DNA of 64,000 nt, from NCBI GenBank assembly GCA_022690815.1, contig JALCZJ010000003.1, positions 1 through 64,000 of the forward strand. The letters run 5' to 3'. Under the pieces are notes generated by a model. The model searched no databases. It saw nothing but the letters and a program-made list of their open reading frames with translations, and had not been told where the DNA came from. The position numbers and the translations under genes are program-made. The stretch is from Ferrimicrobium sp. (GTDB taxonomy: Bacteria; Actinomycetota; Acidimicrobiia; Acidimicrobiales; Acidimicrobiaceae). Below are positions 9,449 through 47,875 of the stretch, in pieces (positions within the stretch are counted from its first letter, which is position 1; each line of letters begins with the position of its first letter).

Positions 9449-9531
9449 GCCCGGATGGCGGAATGGTAGACGCAGGGGGCTTAAACCCCCCGGACCTTTG
9501 GGTCATGCGGGTTCGACTCCCGCTCCGGGTA
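9449..9531 (+). tRNA. tRNA-Leu (anticodon TAA)
   Basis: The 83 bases fold as a class II tRNA. The acceptor stem pairs GCCCGGA with TCCGGGT, the anticodon stem GGGGG/CCCCC encloses loop CTTAAAC (anticodon TAA), a long variable arm follows, and the T-arm is GCGGG-TTCGACT-CCCGC. The discriminator is A, as expected for leucine. CCA is not fully encoded (ACCG follows the acceptor stem). Confidence 0.95.
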
Positions 9532-9605
9532 CCGCTCGTTGATTGAACCTTTCGGAATACCGTTAGGGGTATAGTGGTTGTAACTGGTAACGAGAAAGGG
9601 TGACG

Positions 9606-27855: not shown

Positions 27856-29541
27856 ATGAGCGAGACACGATCAATCAGGATTCGAAGTCAAGAGGTTACC
27901 GAGGGGGTGCGCCGCGCTCCGGCGCGAGCGATGTTGCGAGCGGTCGGACTCAACGACGAGGACTTTGCCAAACCACAGATTGGCATCGCATCATCGTGGA
28001 ACGAGGTGACCCCATGCAATCTCGTACTTTCAGATCTGGCACAACGTGCCAAAGCCGGCGTGCGCGCGGCTGGCGGGGTTCCCTTGGAGTTTGGCACCAT
28101 CGCCGTCTCGGATGGCATCTCCATGGGGCATGAAGGTATGCACTCTTCACTGGTGTCTCGCGAGGTCATCGCCGACTCGGTGGAGCTCATGATGCACGCC
28201 GAACGATTCGACGCTATGGTAACCCTCGCCGGCTGTGACAAGTCGCTGCCGGGGATGATGATGGCCGCTGCTCGCCTCAACCTTCCGTCGGTGTTTGTCT
28301 ATGGAGGGACCATCCTCCCGGGGCGCCTACATGGGGAGACGCTCGATCTTGTGAGTGTCTTCGAAGCGGTCGGGGCCCATGGAGCTGGAACCATTGACGA
28401 CCAGCGTCTACTGGATATCGAACGTAATGCCTGCCCGACCAAGGGTTCATGTGCCGGCATGTATACGGCGAATACCATGGCTTCCGTGGCGGAAGCACTC
28501 GGGCTGGCCCAAATCGGCTCAGCCTCGGCGCCGGCGGTCGATCGACGTCGCGAGGATATCGCGTTCGATGCCGGTCGAACAGTGATGAACCTCTTAGCCC
28601 AAGACATTAGGCCACGACAGATCCTGACCAAGGAGGCGTTCGAAAATGCCATCGCCGCCGTCATGGCCCTCGGGGGGTCGACCAATGCTGTTCTCCACCT
28701 GCTCGCGATCGCCTACGAGGCCAAGGTGGAGTTAACCCTCGATGACTTTAACCGTGTCGCTGCGCGGGTGCCTCACCTGGCTGATACGAAGCCACATGGT
28801 AAGTATCACATGACCGATCTCGATCGCATCGGCGGCATTCCAGTCGTTCTCGGCGAGCTACTTGAGGCGGGACTTTTGCACGGTGACTGCCTCACGGTTA
28901 CTGGACGGACTATGGCTGAGGAGCTCGCCATCTACGATCCGCCACGACCCGATGGGGAGGTGGTGCATCACCTCGATCAGCCGCTGCACGCGGTTGGAGG
29001 TATCGCTATTCTGAGGGGGTCGTTGGCGCCGGCGGGCTCGGTCGTGAAGGTTGCCGGTCTCGACCAAGAGCACTTTGATGGCAAGGCTCGCGTCTTCGAT
29101 CGGGAAGAGGCGGCACTCGATGCGATTTTCGCCGGCACCATCGAGGCCGGTGATGTGGTGATTATCCGTTACGAAGGACCCAAGGGCGGTCCAGGGATGC
29201 GTGAGATGCTGGCAGTGACCGGCGCGATGAAGGGTGCTGGACGGGGCCATGACGCGGCGCTCATCACCGATGGACGCTTCTCCGGGGGAACCCATGGGTT
29301 TTGCATTGGGCATGTCGCCCCAGAGGCGGCTGACGGGGGACCGATCGGCCTCGTGCGTGATGGGGATCGTATCGTCATCGATGTGCCGACCCATTCGATC
29401 GAACTCCTTGTCGACGACGAGGAGCTCTCGAAGCGTCGAGAGACCTTTGTGTCTGCCCCACCCCGATACACCGAAGGGGCATTGGGCAAGTATGCGTTGC
29501 TCGTGAAAGGAGCAGAAATCGGTGCCGTAACTGGCGGATAG
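27856..29541 (+). CDS. ilvD: Dihydroxy-acid dehydratase
   Basis: IlvD dehydrates the dihydroxy acids of valine and isoleucine synthesis to the 2-keto acids. The 561 residues contain the cluster cysteines in [21 protein letters not shown] and [16 protein letters not shown], followed by the C-terminal [19 protein letters not shown]. The frame is open further upstream, but the ATG at 27856, after GAGAGGG, matches the usual N-terminus. It precedes the ilvB leader and ilvBNC, but the attenuator between them suggests that those genes have their own promoter. Confidence 0.94.
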
Positions 29542-29555
29542 CGCCGCGTGCTGGC

Positions 29556-29561
29556 TATGCT
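29556..29561 (+). promoter_or_regulatory. Leaderless-type -10 box for the ilvB leader
   Basis: TATGCT fits TANNNT and is followed by exactly seven bases before the ATG of the leader peptide, so the transcript would begin at the start codon. No convincing -35 and no ribosome-binding site are visible in front of that ATG. Confidence 0.5.
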
Positions 29562-29568
29562 GGCACCC

Positions 29569-29607
29569 ATGATCATTCGACGCGCGCTGGTGGTACTCCT
29601 TCGTTAG
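29569..29607 (+). CDS. ilvB leader peptide, 12 aa
   Basis: The 12-codon frame encodes MIIRRALVVLLR and stops with TAG. Seven of its twelve residues are Ile, Val or Leu, the end products of the pathway encoded downstream. It is followed immediately by a hairpin and an intrinsic terminator, then by ilvB. This is the layout of a ribosome-mediated transcription attenuator: scarcity of any branched-chain aminoacyl-tRNA would stall the ribosome in the peptide and favour read-through. It appears to be translated from a leaderless transcript. Confidence 0.8.
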   Translation: MIIRRALVVLLR

Positions 29608-29634
29608 GGCACGGCTCTTCGTTGCGTCGTGCCC
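29607..29634 (+). promoter_or_regulatory. Attenuator hairpin upstream of the ilvB terminator
   Basis: GGGCACG (29607-29613) pairs with CGTGCCC (29628-29634) around a 14-base loop. Its first G is the last base of the leader-peptide stop codon, so a ribosome on the last codons would open it. It abuts the terminator hairpin directly. It probably acts as the pause or alternative structure of the attenuator; the exact antiterminator pairing needs folding. Confidence 0.65.
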
Positions 29635-29661
29635 AAGACCTCCCATACCGGGAGGTCTTTT
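29635..29661 (+). terminator. Intrinsic terminator (attenuator) before ilvB
   Basis: AAGACCTCCC (29635-29644) pairs perfectly with GGGAGGTCTT (29650-29659) around a five-base loop, and the 3' arm runs into TTTTC. It lies between the leader peptide and ilvB, so it acts as the regulated terminator of the ilvBNC operon. It may also end transcripts coming from ilvD. Confidence 0.85.
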
Positions 29662-29736
29662 CGTATCTACGCATATGAGAGATGGTGATCCCTAGAAGAA
29701 GCCACAGGCGCATCGTTGACGATGAAGGAGGCGATG

Positions 29737-31443
29737 ATGAGATTGACGGGAGCGCAAGCGCTGATCAAGTCCCTGGAGATGCAGGGAGTCGAGACGGTTT
29801 TTGGTCTCCCTGGTGGAGCGATTCTACCGGTGTATGACCCGCTGCTCGAATCCCCAATCCGTCATATCCTTGTCCGTCATGAGCAGGGTGCGGGTCACGC
29901 CGCCGAAGGCTTTGCGCAAGCGACCGGACGGCCTGGGGTTGCGATCGTCACGAGCGGACCAGCGGCGACCAACATCGTGACAGCGGTGGCGGACGCGTAT
30001 GTGGACTCCATCCCCATCGTGGTGATCACCGGGCAGGTCGCAACGACGTCGATCGGGACTGACGCCTTTCAAGAGACCGATACGACCGGTATCACCATGT
30101 CGGTGACCAAACACAACTGGTTGATCACCCAGGCTCGAGATATCCCTCGCGTGATCGCGGAGGCGTTCCACGTCGCAACGACGGGACGGCCGGGGCCGGT
30201 CGTGGTCGATTTTCCAAAGGATGTCGCCAACGACACGATGGAGTGGTACTGGCCACGTCGACTCGATCTCCCCGGATATCAGCCGACCGTCAAGGGCCAT
30301 CCCAAGATGATCGAGCAGGCAGCAGCTATGATCGCGAGCGCGTCGCGACCGGTCATCTACGCAGGAGGGGGGCTCATCCGCGCCGGTGCCGCGCCAGAGC
30401 TTGGCGCGCTTGTCGAGCGGACGGGCATTCCCGTGGTCACGACCCTCATGGCTCGCGGGGTGCTGCCCGACTCGAACCCGCTCTGCTTGGGGATGCCAGG
30501 CATGCATGGGAACTTCACTGCCGTGACCGCGCTCCAGCAATCGGATTTGGTGATTGCCCTTGGGGCGAGGTTCGATGATCGGGTGACGGGGAAGGTCGAT
30601 GCCTTCGCTGCCAAGGCGCGGATCATCCATGTCGATATCGACCCCGCCGAGTTAGGCAAGGTCCGTCGACCCGATGTGCCGATCGTGGGTGATGTCAAGT
30701 CCGTGATTCCCGAGATCGTTCGGCATCTACCGGCCCAAGGTCGTGACCTCTCAGGGTGGTTGGCCCAGCTCGACGCTTGGCGCGAGCAGTATCCATACTC
30801 GTATGAGCCGCCGTTGCCTGGAGCCCCGATCAAGCCGCAATACGTGGTAGAGCGTCTTTCGGCGCTTGCACCTCCGGATACGATCGCCGTTTCAGGGGTT
30901 GGTCAACATCAGATGTGGGCATCCCAATACTTTCGCTTCGAGTCCCCAAACACCTGGATCAACTCAGGCGGGCTGGGCACCATGGGTTTCGCGGTCCCGG
31001 CGGCGATCGGCGCCAAGGCTGGTCGTCCACGGAGTACGGTATGGGCTATCGATGGCGATGGTTGCTTCCAGATGACTGCCCAAGAGCTCGTGACTGCCAC
31101 TGCAGAGCGTATCCCGATCAAGGTTGCCATTCTCAACAATGGTTACCTTGGCATGGTCCGCCAGTGGCAAGAGATGTTCTACGAGGAGCGCTATTCGGAG
31201 GTGTTCCTCTCGCCGGACCTGCCCGATTACGTTAAATGGGCAGAGGCGATGGGTGCGGTGGGCTTTCGAGTCGATCAGGTCAGTGATGTCGATCCGGTGA
31301 TTGAAAAGGCCAACCAGATCGATGATCGACCGGTAGTCATTGATTTTCGGGTGGACACCTTCGAGAAGGTGTACCCAATGGTGCCGGCTGGGGCGCCCAA
31401 CGATGACATTGTGTTGCCGCCCCATCAGCTCAAGGGGCGATGA
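29737..31443 (+). CDS. ilvB: Acetolactate synthase, large subunit
   Basis: The thiamine diphosphate enzyme makes acetolactate or acetohydroxybutyrate, the first common step for branched-chain amino acids. The N-terminal domain has [13 protein letters not shown] and the catalytic glutamate in [15 protein letters not shown]; the ThDP-binding motif is in the GDGCFQM ... ILNN segment. I chose the ATG at 29737 because AAGGAGG lies five bases upstream; the frame is open to a TTG at 29716. The resulting 568 residues are normal. It is controlled by the attenuator upstream and overlaps ilvN. Confidence 0.95.
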
Positions 31444-32006
31444 TGGCCGAACGTTCCTCCAATCTCGTGCCGATTGGCTCGATCCGCCCTCACACCGGTG
31501 GGCGTCATCATATCTTGAGCGTCTTGGTGGAGAATCGAGCCGGCGTGTTGGCCCGCGTCTCGCTGCTGTTCTCTCGTCGTGGCTATAACATCTATTCGTT
31601 GGCGGTGGCCCCGACGGACGACGAGCGCTTCTCGCGGTTGACGATCGTCGTGGACGTGGAGACCGTTCCACTCGAGCAGATCACCAAGCAGCTGCATAAG
31701 TTGATCAATGTGATCAAGATCACCGAGATCGATCCAGCGGATGCCTTGGAGTATGAGTGCATGCTCGCAACCATCAACGCCGAGGCCGGTGCACGCGCAA
31801 AGGTGATGGAGCTCGTCGAGATCTTTCATGGTGAGATTATCGACGTTTCGCTTGATCGGCTGACCGTCGTGTTCGCACTCTCGCCAGAGAAGCTCGATGA
31901 TGTTGAAGCCTTCCTGGCCGAATTCGGCCTGATCGAGCTGCAACGAACCGGTAGGATTGCACTGAGCAAGCTGCCAAAACCAACGCGAAGACCGAAGAAG
32001 GGATGA
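31440..32006 (+). CDS. ilvN: Acetolactate synthase, small regulatory subunit
   Basis: This 188-residue regulatory subunit confers valine feedback control on IlvB. The N-terminal ACT domain is clear ([20 protein letters not shown], then [14 protein letters not shown]), with a second ACT-like domain after residue 100. The start overlaps the ilvB stop (ATGA), so the two subunits are made together. Confidence 0.94.
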
Positions 32007-32015
32007 ATTTCATAA

Positions 32016-33038
32016 ATGGCTCACATGTATTACGATAAGGACGCTGACTCATCGATCATTAGCAACACTCGTGTCGCTATCATCGGCTATGGTTCACAGG
32101 GGCATGCCCATGCACTCAACCTCTCCGATTCGGGTGTCCAGGTGCGGGTTGCACTTCGGCCTGGCTCGGCCTCAGGACAGAAGGCCTGGGCGAGCGGACT
32201 CGAGGTTTTGTCGGTGCCTGAGGCGGTGGCCTGGGCGGACCTGATCATGTTTCTCGCTCCTGACACGGTGCAAAAGCAGATCTATGACGACGAGGTTGCT
32301 CCCCATCTTCGCCCGGGTCAGACCTTGGGTTTCGCTCATGGGTTTAACATTCGCTACCAAGAAATCGTCCCACCCGAGGATGTGACGGTGATCATGGTGG
32401 CCCCGAAGGGTCCTGGACATCTCGTTCGCCGAACCTACGAGGAGGGCGGTGGGGTCCCATCCTTGATCGCAGTGGCCAACGACCCCCAAGGTACTGGTCA
32501 TCAGCTTGCGCTCTCGTATGCCTGGGGCATTGGTTCGACCAAGGCCGGTGTCTTGGATACCACTTTTGCTGAGGAGACGGAGACCGATCTCTTCGGAGAA
32601 CAGGTGGTTCTCTGCGGAGGTCTGAGCGAGCTGATCATCGCTGGCTTTACCACATTGGTCGAGGCTGGCTATCAGCCTGAGTCGGCGTATTTTGAGTGCT
32701 TGCATGAGATGAAGTTGATCGTCGACCTCCTCTACGAGAACGGGCTCGCTGGGATGTGGTTTTCGGTCTCGGAGACTGCAGAATATGGCGGACTCACCCG
32801 AGGTCCACGTGTGGTCACCGAAGCCACCCGGGCAGAGATGCGGCAAATTCTTGCCGAGATCCAAGATGGTAGCTTCGCACGCGAACTCATTGACGAGATG
32901 GCGACCGGCCGGCCCCGTTTCAATCAACTTCGGGAACGGGCCAAGGGTCAACCGGTGGAGCAGGTGGGTGCGACGCTGCGAGCGATGATGCCATTTTTGT
33001 CGACGAAGTCGAAGATCACCGAGGTCTCCGGAGGCTAG
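32016..33038 (+). CDS. ilvC: Ketol-acid reductoisomerase
   Basis: IlvC isomerises and reduces acetolactate to the dihydroxy acid. It is a class I enzyme of 340 residues: the Rossmann motif is [17 protein letters not shown] and the cofactor loop reads [11 protein letters not shown], with the phosphate-binding arginine and serines expected for NADPH preference. The C-terminal knotted domain has the metal ligands in DLFGEQ and the [13 protein letters not shown] segment. It follows ilvN after nine bases. Confidence 0.95.
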
Positions 33039-46181: not shown

Positions 46182-47765
46182 GTGGCTACCATCCTGGTGA
46201 GCGAGGTAATAGCAGACCGCGGGCTTGATATTCTACGCGGGGCAGGGCACGAGGTGCGCGTTGCCCTTGATCTGTCCCCCCAAGAGCTTATCGAAGCCGT
46301 TCATGACGTTAATGCGGTTATCATTCGGTCGGCGACAAAGGTTACAGCTGAAGTGATTGCCAATGCACCACACTTGGTCGTCGTTGGCCGAGCTGGCATT
46401 GGACTTGATAATGTCGACGTTGAAGCCGCCACCCAGGCGGGGGTCATGGTGGTCAACGCTCCGCAATCGAACATCATCTCGGCTGCTGAACACACCATGG
46501 CGCTCTTGCTTTCGCTGTCACGCCAGATCCCCCAGGCACACGCGAGTCTGACGGCGGGGACTTGGGCTCGGTCTTCATTTGAAGGCGTCGAACTCTATGG
46601 CAAGACGCTTGGCATCGTCGGTTTGGGCAGAATCGGAGCGTTGGTGGCGCAGCGGGCACTGGCCTTTGGCATGACACTCATCGCCTACGACCCCTACATC
46701 TCCCAGGAGCGGGCCAAGAAGATGGGCGTTGAGCTCACCTCGCTCGAAGATTTGGTCGTAAGGGCGGACTTTGTGACCATCCATCTTCCTAAGTCCAAGG
46801 AGACCAAGGGTCTTATCGGTAAGGAGATTTTGGCCCAGGCGAAGCCTGGAATCCGTTTTGTCAACGCTGCGCGTGGCGGCATCATCGATGAAGATGCCCT
46901 CTATGCGGCGCTCGTTGAAGGAACAGTTGCCGGAGCCGCGCTCGATGTTTTTGCAAACGAGCCACCGACCGGCTCACCGTTGCTTGAACTGGATTCTGTT
47001 GTCGTTACCCCGCACCTTGGTGCCAGTACCGAGGAGGCCCAGAACAAGGCAGGTATTACGATCGCCGAGCAGGTACAGTTGGCGCTCGCGAATGAGTTCG
47101 TACCGTTCGCGGTCAACGTGAACGCCGCTGAGGCCTCTCCCGAGGTGCGCCCCTATCTAGGTCTCGTGGAGTTCTTGGGTCAGTTCATCTCCTCCCTAAC
47201 GGGCGGACTTCCTGGTGCCCTCGAGATCGAATACCAGGGAGGGCTCGCGCACGAAGATACCAGGCTCTTGACGCTGTCGATCCTAAAGGGGATCTTCTCG
47301 GTGGGACTAAATGAACCGGTTTCCTACGTCAATGCGCCCCAACTGGCATCGGAGCGCGGCCTTGAGATTCGAGAGACCACCGTCGCTAACAGTCTGAACT
47401 TCCGCAACCTGGTCGTCCTGCGCACTCCAGAGCATGTGGTTGGCGGAACGTTGGCAGGAGCGACTGGTTCTGAACCGAGAATCGTGCTGGTGGACGGTCA
47501 CTGGGTGGAGGTTCCTCCAGCGGCTTCGATGCTCGCGGTCCGAAACTTTGACCAGCCCGGCATGATTGGTGTAGTCGGTAAAGTCCTAGGCGACGGAGGC
47601 TACTCAATCGTTTCGATGGCGGTATCGCCGAGGGTGGATGATGGTACTGCCTTGATGCTCCTGAGTGTTTCTCGACCGGTCGAACCGGCGGTAATTCAAC
47701 TCCTTGAGGGGAATGCAGGTATTATCTATGCGAAGTCGGTCGGGTCTGAGCCGAGTATCGATTAG
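46182..47765 (+). CDS. serA: D-3-phosphoglycerate dehydrogenase
   Basis: SerA catalyses the first step of serine synthesis. The 527 residues are the long type with an NAD-binding domain (KTLGIVGLGRIGALVAQRA), catalytic Arg/Glu/His region (FVNAARGGIIDE, VVTPHLGASTEEAQ), an intervening domain and a C-terminal ACT domain (MLAVRNFDQPGMIGVVGKVL), which usually mediates serine inhibition. The GTG start has GAGGAG upstream. The last codons overlap a possible -10 box for the leuA leader. Confidence 0.93.
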   Translation: MATILVSEVIADRGLDILRGAGHEVRVALDLSPQELIEAVHDVNAVIIRSATKVTAEVIANAPHLVVVGRAGIGLDNVDVEAATQAGVMVVNAPQSNIISAAEHTMALLLSLSRQIPQAHASLTAGTWARSSFEGVELYGKTLGIVGLGRIGALVAQRALAFGMTLIAYDPYISQERAKKMGVELTSLEDLVVRADFVTIHLPKSKETKGLIGKEILAQAKPGIRFVNAARGGIIDEDALYAALVEGTVAGAALDVFANEPPTGSPLLELDSVVVTPHLGASTEEAQNKAGITIAEQVQLALANEFVPFAVNVNAAEASPEVRPYLGLVEFLGQFISSLTGGLPGALEIEYQGGLAHEDTRLLTLSILKGIFSVGLNEPVSYVNAPQLASERGLEIRETTVANSLNFRNLVVLRTPEHVVGGTLAGATGSEPRIVLVDGHWVEVPPAASMLAVRNFDQPGMIGVVGKVLGDGGYSIVSMAVSPRVDDGTALMLLSVSRPVEPAVIQLLEGNAGIIYAKSVGSEPSID

Positions 47766-47768
47766 GTT
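47763..47768 (+). promoter_or_regulatory. Possible -10 box for the leuA leader
   Basis: TAGGTT fits TANNNT, overlaps the serA stop codon and lies nine bases before the ATG of the leader peptide. This is close to the leaderless spacing seen at ilvB but not identical, so the assignment is tentative. Confidence 0.35.
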
Positions 47769-47777
47769 CGTGGACAT

Positions 47778-47816
47778 ATGAGGTTTATGGCCAGCACAGG
47801 ACTCCTTCTTAGGTAG
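47778..47816 (+). CDS. leuA leader peptide, 12 aa
   Basis: The 12-codon frame encodes MRFMASTGLLLR and stops with TAG. Three consecutive leucine codons (CTC CTT CTT) stand just before the end. A hairpin and an intrinsic terminator follow at once, then leuA, so this is a leucine attenuator: lack of Leu-tRNA would stall the ribosome at these codons. A second ATG at codon 4 could also start the peptide. The end (LLR-stop) and the following bases resemble the ilvB leader. Confidence 0.78.
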   Translation: MRFMASTGLLLR

Positions 47817-47840
47817 GGCGATCACCACCGGTGATCGCCC
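47816..47840 (+). promoter_or_regulatory. Attenuator hairpin upstream of the leuA terminator
   Basis: GGGCGATCACC (47816-47826) pairs perfectly with GGTGATCGCCC (47830-47840) around a three-base loop. Its first G is the last base of the leader stop codon, as at ilvB, and the terminator stem begins at the next base. Confidence 0.65.
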
Positions 47841-47875
47841 AAGACCCTCTTGATCGTTGATCAGAGGGTCTTTTT
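47841..47875 (+). terminator. Intrinsic terminator (attenuator) before leuA
   Basis: AAGACCCTCT (47841-47850) pairs with AGAGGGTCTT (47863-47872), extended by an inner TGATC/GATCA pairing with one bulged base, and the 3' arm continues as TTTTT. It separates the leader peptide from leuA and would also stop read-through from serA. Confidence 0.85.

Follow-up and report, generated by a model that had tools for sequence, protein, structure and literature searches.

The ilvB leader and its surroundings

The window, by which we mean the whole 64,000-nt stretch of Ferrimicrobium sp. DNA analysed here, carries an ilvBNC operon. Upstream of it on the same strand lies ilvD, which also scores above its NCBIfam cut-off and ends at position 29541, its stop codon ending 14 nt before a -10-like element. 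From this element onward, the following features were identified:

29556..29561, + strand: -10-like element TATGCT (from the sequence; kept in the genus)
29562-29568, + strand: spacer of seven bases between TATGCT and the leader ATG
29569..29607, + strand: leader ORF of 12 codons, MIIRRALVVLLR (sequence and conservation), with start codon ATG at 29569-29571 and stop codon UAG (TAG in the DNA) at 29605-29607
29607..29634, + strand: hairpin H1 (RNA folding), arms 29607-29615 and 29626-29634
29635..29661, + strand: terminator-like hairpin T with T-run (folding), core CCTCCC/GGGAGG
29737..31443, + strand: ilvB, acetolactate synthase large subunit, the putative controlled gene (NCBIfam TIGR00118 and NF005860 above cut-off)
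31440..32006, + strand: ilvN, small subunit (TIGR00119 above cut-off)
32016..33038, + strand: ilvC, ketol-acid reductoisomerase (TIGR00465 above cut-off)

The initial annotation had described TATGCT, seven bases, a 12-codon peptide, a hairpin on the stop codon, a perfect 10-bp terminator stem with a T-run, and ilvB, and this description proved exact to the base. In the folded RNA, H1 comprises nine pairs plus one inner pair, and the G of the UAG stop codon takes part in its first pair. The arms of T (29635-29644 and 29650-29659) form ten perfect pairs around a 5-nt loop, and the T-run ends at 29661. H1 directly abuts T, and according to folding both hairpins coexist at equilibrium. The fold of 29569-29672 consists of H1 and T, reaches -40.8 kcal/mol (z = -3.1) and was equalled by one of 200 dinucleotide shuffles. 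Based on structure and T-run, an intrinsic terminator is predicted between the leader ORF and ilvB, the ATG of which (29737) is preceded by AAGGAGG. The motif ACCTCCC-N3..6-GGGAGGT occurs a single time in the 2.54-Mb genome, at the ilvB leader.

A generic scan for promoter and terminator consensus sequences called neither at the ilvB leader and returned its sole match inside ilvD. By our reading, T was missed because the full T stem has fewer Ts behind it than the scan's rule requires. A second scan of the window, for a leaderless ORF followed by a terminator, returned the ilvB leader only.

Conservation of the leader from genus to phylum

A DNA search for the ilvB leader block in 41 genomes, its own included, gave a match in each of the six congeners. 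In five of them the match spans almost exactly 29552-29672 at 85-90% identity; in the sixth it is longer, runs from 29568 onward and has 77% identity. Within the seven genomes of the genus, the -10 element (TATGCT in six, TATGAT in one), the ATG, the peptide core, H1 and T show hardly any variation, and the 7-nt spacer is free to vary. The peptides follow the pattern M(I/T)(I/D)RR(A/S)LVVLL(R/L), followed by UAG, H1 and T. Directly 3' of the T-run, CGTATCTACGC (29662-29672) is almost unchanged in these seven genomes, and TATC-like bases occur after the T-run in several other genera.

At the family level, 39 of 42 genomes contained IlvB, and 38 upstream regions were read, as the match in G055 starts at a contig edge. 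The same plan is present in 37 of these 38 regions and in seven of eight genera: TAnnnT 5-9 nt before an ORF whose 10-15 codons include a Val/Leu/Ile run close to the stop, followed by H1 and a CCTCCC/GGGAGG hairpin; the script preferred candidate ORFs having a -10 element. A representative of another genus (G012) reads TAGGTT, 7 nt, MATNSLVLLR, H1 and T. The sole exception, G007, retains the CCTCCC/GGGAGG hairpin before ilvB and has no leader peptide. The initial annotation had stated that absence of the peptide and the terminator from closely related genomes would refute its reading. None of the six congeners had lost them, and the peptide was absent from one of the 38 family regions.

The order sample comprised 128 genomes, 116 of which contained IlvB at cut-off, and all 116 upstream regions were read. 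The hairpin core was present in 101 of them, and in 94 of these it was accompanied by a leader containing three or more Ile, Leu or Val codons in a row; some of the 15 regions lacking the core as written still show a leader peptide (e.g. G060 and G114). Genomes within one genus are not independent in these counts. A sample of 80 genomes from the phylum included 12 without an IlvB match at cut-off; 42 of the 64 IlvB-positive genomes outside the order were read. Here, the core was found in four of 42 regions, and other leaders recur, such as MRTRILVLGKRVG in G190.

For the comparisons that follow, we assembled a set of 138 elements, which leaves out G007, and an alignment (A5), both conditioned on the CCTCCC..GGGAGG core; the unconditioned figure is the 101 of 116 given above. 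A run of at least three Ile, Leu or Val codons was present in 131 of the 138 elements, compared to 2.7% of Markov shuffles and none of the 138 opposite strands. At least four such codons among the last nine before a suitably placed stop were found in 112 of 138, compared to 0.4% of 1380 Markov shuffles and, again, no opposite strand (0/138). The leaders end with UAG in 104 of 131 cases, with UGA in 20 and with UAA in seven. The arrangement at the ilvB leader is far beyond chance.

The T core CCTCCC/GGGAGG (29639-29655 and relatives) is nearly fixed throughout the order and the basal pairs of T vary, with ACGA/UCGU, AAGA/UCUU and GG/CC among the rows listed. Its 3' arm, GGAGGU, looks Shine-Dalgarno-like. 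In several members of the order (e.g. L104, L110 and L149), the T-run is located several bases beyond the hairpin, as in GGGAGGTCGTCGTCGTTTTC, an unusual placement for an intrinsic terminator.

Leader start, control codons and a second leader before leuA

The ATG of the leader in the window has no Shine-Dalgarno sequence, and a -10-like element is positioned within 5-9 nt of it. A Shine-Dalgarno-like tetramer preceded nine of 117 leader starts compared to 100 of 117 ilvB starts in the same genomes. Of 125 leader starts, 97 had a YAnnnT motif at a distance of 5-9 nt upstream (14% in shuffles), with a peak at 7 nt, and 51 had the strict form TAnnnT (8% in shuffles); starts in these counts were assigned by a fixed rule as the nearest ATG or GTG giving 9-18 codons. 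Among S. lividans -10-to-start spacers, 5-7 nt make up 88.7% of cases (PMC8079986). The spacing of 8-9 nt seen in several genera would imply one to three untranslated bases. In the window, the predicted 5' end lies at or next to 29569. The -10-like spacing and the rarity of Shine-Dalgarno sequences thus support, on comparative grounds and with a 5' end that is a prediction, the leaderless ribosome-mediated branched-chain attenuator proposed in the initial annotation. Leaderless control as an idea is supported here but is not new, as it is in print for Corynebacterium and Streptomyces.

The same data bear on whether the leader peptide might act on a longer transcript, for example one reading through from ilvD, in which case the attenuator would not be leaderless. 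The end of ilvD on the same strand and the lack of any recognisable -35 element upstream of the ilvB leader would suit such a transcript. The leader ATG without a Shine-Dalgarno site, the scarcity of such sites among the 117 leader starts and the preferred spacing of the -10-like element speak against it, as does the conserved block, which in five congeners starts at the -10 element and not upstream. A longer transcript therefore appears improbable to us.

We then compared codon usage between leaders and ilvB. In the 57 genomes that provided a complete ilvB, GUA accounted for 79% of 133 Val codons in leaders versus 6% of 3157 in ilvB; its share was 4% of 227 Val codons in six genes of the window, whose own leader contains one GUA (29593-29595) and one GUG. 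The shifts for Leu and Ile codons between leader and ilvB were much smaller (CUU 27% versus 13%, CUG 14% versus 35%, AUU 30% versus 17%). Along the leaders of 126 elements, GUA is most frequent at codon -4 relative to the stop. The GUA bias would fit sensing via a minor valine tRNA; it may also stem from a constraint on RNA structure. The influence of regulatory codons on sensitivity is treated in PMC1183508.

The position of H1 relative to the stop codon was determined for the same 126 elements. The first paired base of H1 had a median position of 1, numbered from 0 at the first base of the stop; H1 starts were taken from folding a segment beginning 3 nt before the stop, so that an earlier start was barred and H1's own pairing favoured. 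If the ribosome is assumed to cover 26 nt, the footprint of PMC13236596, its leading edge does not pass the start of H1 in 119 of 126 elements while it stands on the first codon of the run, which leaves H1 free. For a ribosome at the stop, the footprint extends at least 8 nt past the first H1 base in all 126. In this model, the geometry is as would be expected if H1 senses arrival of the ribosome at the stop codon.

Since the core is kept while the basal pairs of T vary, which is more constraint than a terminator seems to need, the leader might alternatively be bound by a metabolite, a tRNA or a protein (in the manner of a T-box, a ppGpp riboswitch or a LEU element), with the CCUCCC/GGGAGG hairpin as the part that is recognised. 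However, no Rfam family reaches its gathering score at the ilvB leader, a match to T-box or ppGpp riboswitch at that score is absent, the top sub-threshold match (Phe_leader, 21.6 of 55 bits) is not significant, and the codon run and stop geometry indicate a ribosome, which makes a binding leader very unlikely. That the two hairpins are a constitutive terminator or RNA-processing hairpins after ilvD, with an incidental peptide, is hardly credible: T could end ilvD read-through transcripts, but genera with differing H1 sequences share the branched-chain run, the GUA bias and the geometry between stop and hairpin, and the plan is kept despite a varying distance between leader and ilvB (278-296 nt in g3, 115-244 nt in the rest of the family).

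Another candidate attenuator is found in the window before leuA:

47763..47768, + strand: -10-like TAGGTT, with 9-nt spacing to the leader
47778..47816, + strand: leader ORF MRFMASTGLLLR, stop UAG (sequence and relatives)
47816..47840, + strand: leuA H1 (by eye from the stop codon; the fold by script starts 2 nt before the stop codon)
47841..47875, + strand: terminator-like hairpin with T-run, directly after leuA H1 (read from the sequence)
48020: leuA (TIGR00973 above cut-off)

All seven genomes of the genus retain the leuA leader block. LeuA was found in 38 of 42 family genomes, and 28 of the 30 upstream regions that were read contain a leader in which three or more Leu codons stand in a row. 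YAnnnT was present 5-9 nt upstream in 24 of these 28 leaders, such candidates having been preferred, and a Shine-Dalgarno-like tetramer in none. CUU (54) and CUA (25) were frequent among the 105 Leu codons, counts that stand without a matched control. The scan for leaderless ORFs with terminators had missed the leuA attenuator, probably because of its limit on loop length. Two putative attenuators of different sequence and the same layout strengthen the case that the layout is what works. The contig that carries both of them also contains a tRNA-Leu(UAA) gene at 9449-9533.

A proposed mechanism and related systems

Based on its parts, their conservation, the geometry, the GUA bias, the leuA twin and experimental precedents in relatives, the region upstream of ilvBNC very probably acts as a ribosome-mediated transcription attenuator on a leaderless transcript. 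In the proposed sequence of events, whose 5' end, ribosome stalling, termination and opposition of H1 to T we infer, transcription would start within a nucleotide or two of the ATG at 29569 or at the ATG itself, and a ribosome would load directly on the 5'-terminal AUG. With charged Val-, Leu- and Ile-tRNAs at hand, the ribosome would proceed to the UAG and cover the 5' arm of H1, upon which T would fold and transcription would stop before ilvB. If charged tRNAs are scarce, the ribosome would wait on the Val-Val-Leu-Leu codons with its leading edge near the base of H1; H1 would then fold, T would be disfavoured and the polymerase would enter ilvBNC.

In the trp and ilv attenuators of enterobacteria, the position of the ribosome on control codons likewise selects between RNA folds, as we propose here. 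Unlike the leader in the window, enterobacterial trp and ilv leaders have Shine-Dalgarno sites and alternating pairings, and trp-type attenuation relies on an additional pairing that is incompatible with the terminator. Closer relatives are known from actinobacteria; the ilvBNC attenuator of C. glutamicum was reportedly described by Morbach et al. in 2000. As proposed for the window, ilvBNC of C. glutamicum and C. diphtheriae is preceded by a leaderless branched-chain leader peptide and then by hairpins, the last of which is a terminator (PMC11857589, PMC5784534). Attenuator mutants are described for the former (PMC11857589), and in the latter transcription of the ilvB leader starts at the leader start codon (PMC5784534). 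The model for C. glutamicum comprises three hairpins, with a three-nucleotide overlap of antiterminator and terminator at GCC (PMC11857589), whereas here two hairpins abut and no general overlap was found.

In S. lividans, the leaderless ilvL before ilvBHC encodes the 13-residue MRTRILVLGKRVG (PMC8079986), a peptide identical to that in G190, whose upstream region differs from the window in that the CCTCCC/GGGAGG core was not found there. The M. tuberculosis ilvB1NC operon resembles the present case in having a uORF with LVVI control codons, GUA being marked as regulatory (PMC13236596, 2026). In this system, a ribosome at the stop is said to mask the antiterminator, exchange of LVVI for AAAA abolished induction and disruption of the terminator lessened the linked vulnerability (PMC13236596). 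Antiterminator and terminator are described there as mutually exclusive (PMC13236596), and no general pairing of this kind was found here. A title cited by the same paper concerns leaderless cysteine attenuators in mycobacteria (PMC13236596). Candidate ilvB leaders with terminators have been proposed for Corynebacterium, Mycobacterium and Streptomyces (PMC1262725); mutating the candidate ilvB leader codons of S. coelicolor had no effect according to the same source (PMC1262725), which counts against the attenuator reading.

Our search of the open-access literature returned no report of ilvB attenuation in Acidimicrobium or of leader-peptide attenuation in Acidimicrobi- taxa. A putative leaderless ilvB attenuator turns out, from sequence comparison, to be widespread in Acidimicrobiales, where we found no earlier report, the mechanism itself being known.

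We also searched for a pairing that might serve as antiterminator. Twelve arm pairings were compared with swapped partners in 126 elements. H1 with itself and T with itself alone beat the swaps at p < 0.05, where the H1 arms had been defined by folding, which favours their own partner. Of the other ten, which combined codons, H1 arms and T arms, none exceeded swapped controls at p < 0.05 in the 126 elements. The codons with the 3' arm of H1 (p = 0.056 against swaps) and with the 3' arm of T (p = 0.16) beat shuffles only, uncorrected for multiple testing. An extension of H1 into the base of T was considered as antiterminator and rejected; with a mean of 2.66 expected pairs versus 2.16 for swapped ones, the excess was slight. 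In the window's genome, 12 of 30 swaps equalled or bettered this extension, as did 78 of 100 shuffles. It exceeded nearly all swaps in five g4 genomes (G041, G042, G043, G046 and G047), where 7 to 34 of 100 shuffles were as good. Two pairings noted by eye, of the Val-Val codons with the bases after the T-run and of the Leu codons with the ilvB Shine-Dalgarno sequence, were dropped without formal test. The covariance model R1 was not taken further, as it retained T alone because H1 was misaligned between genera. H1 may thus oppose T through adjacency, through timing, or by a pairing that escapes detection because it is too short or too variable.

These observations led us to a broader, tentative model, which we regard as possible and rather doubtful: an order-wide attenuator of two hairpins without a separate antiterminator, in which the stop-locked H1 would sense the position of the ribosome and oppose T by adjacency or timing. 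Such a device would be used twice within a single genome (for Val/Leu at ilvB and for Leu at leuA), would sense valine mainly via the rare GUA, and would have its T core held by an additional interaction.

The presence of the arrangement in most sampled members of an order belonging to another class suggests an old actinobacterial device. With about a hundred natural variants available, geometry, control codons and hairpins lend themselves to comparison, and the GUA bias together with the hairpin locked to the stop codon yields sharp predictions. A direct test of the antitermination step, a matter of debate in S. coelicolor and C. glutamicum too, comes within reach. In the ribosome-free fold of the congener G005, H1 gives way to a pairing of codons 4-6 into its region, with T unchanged; this modelled alternative could possibly represent a state without translation.
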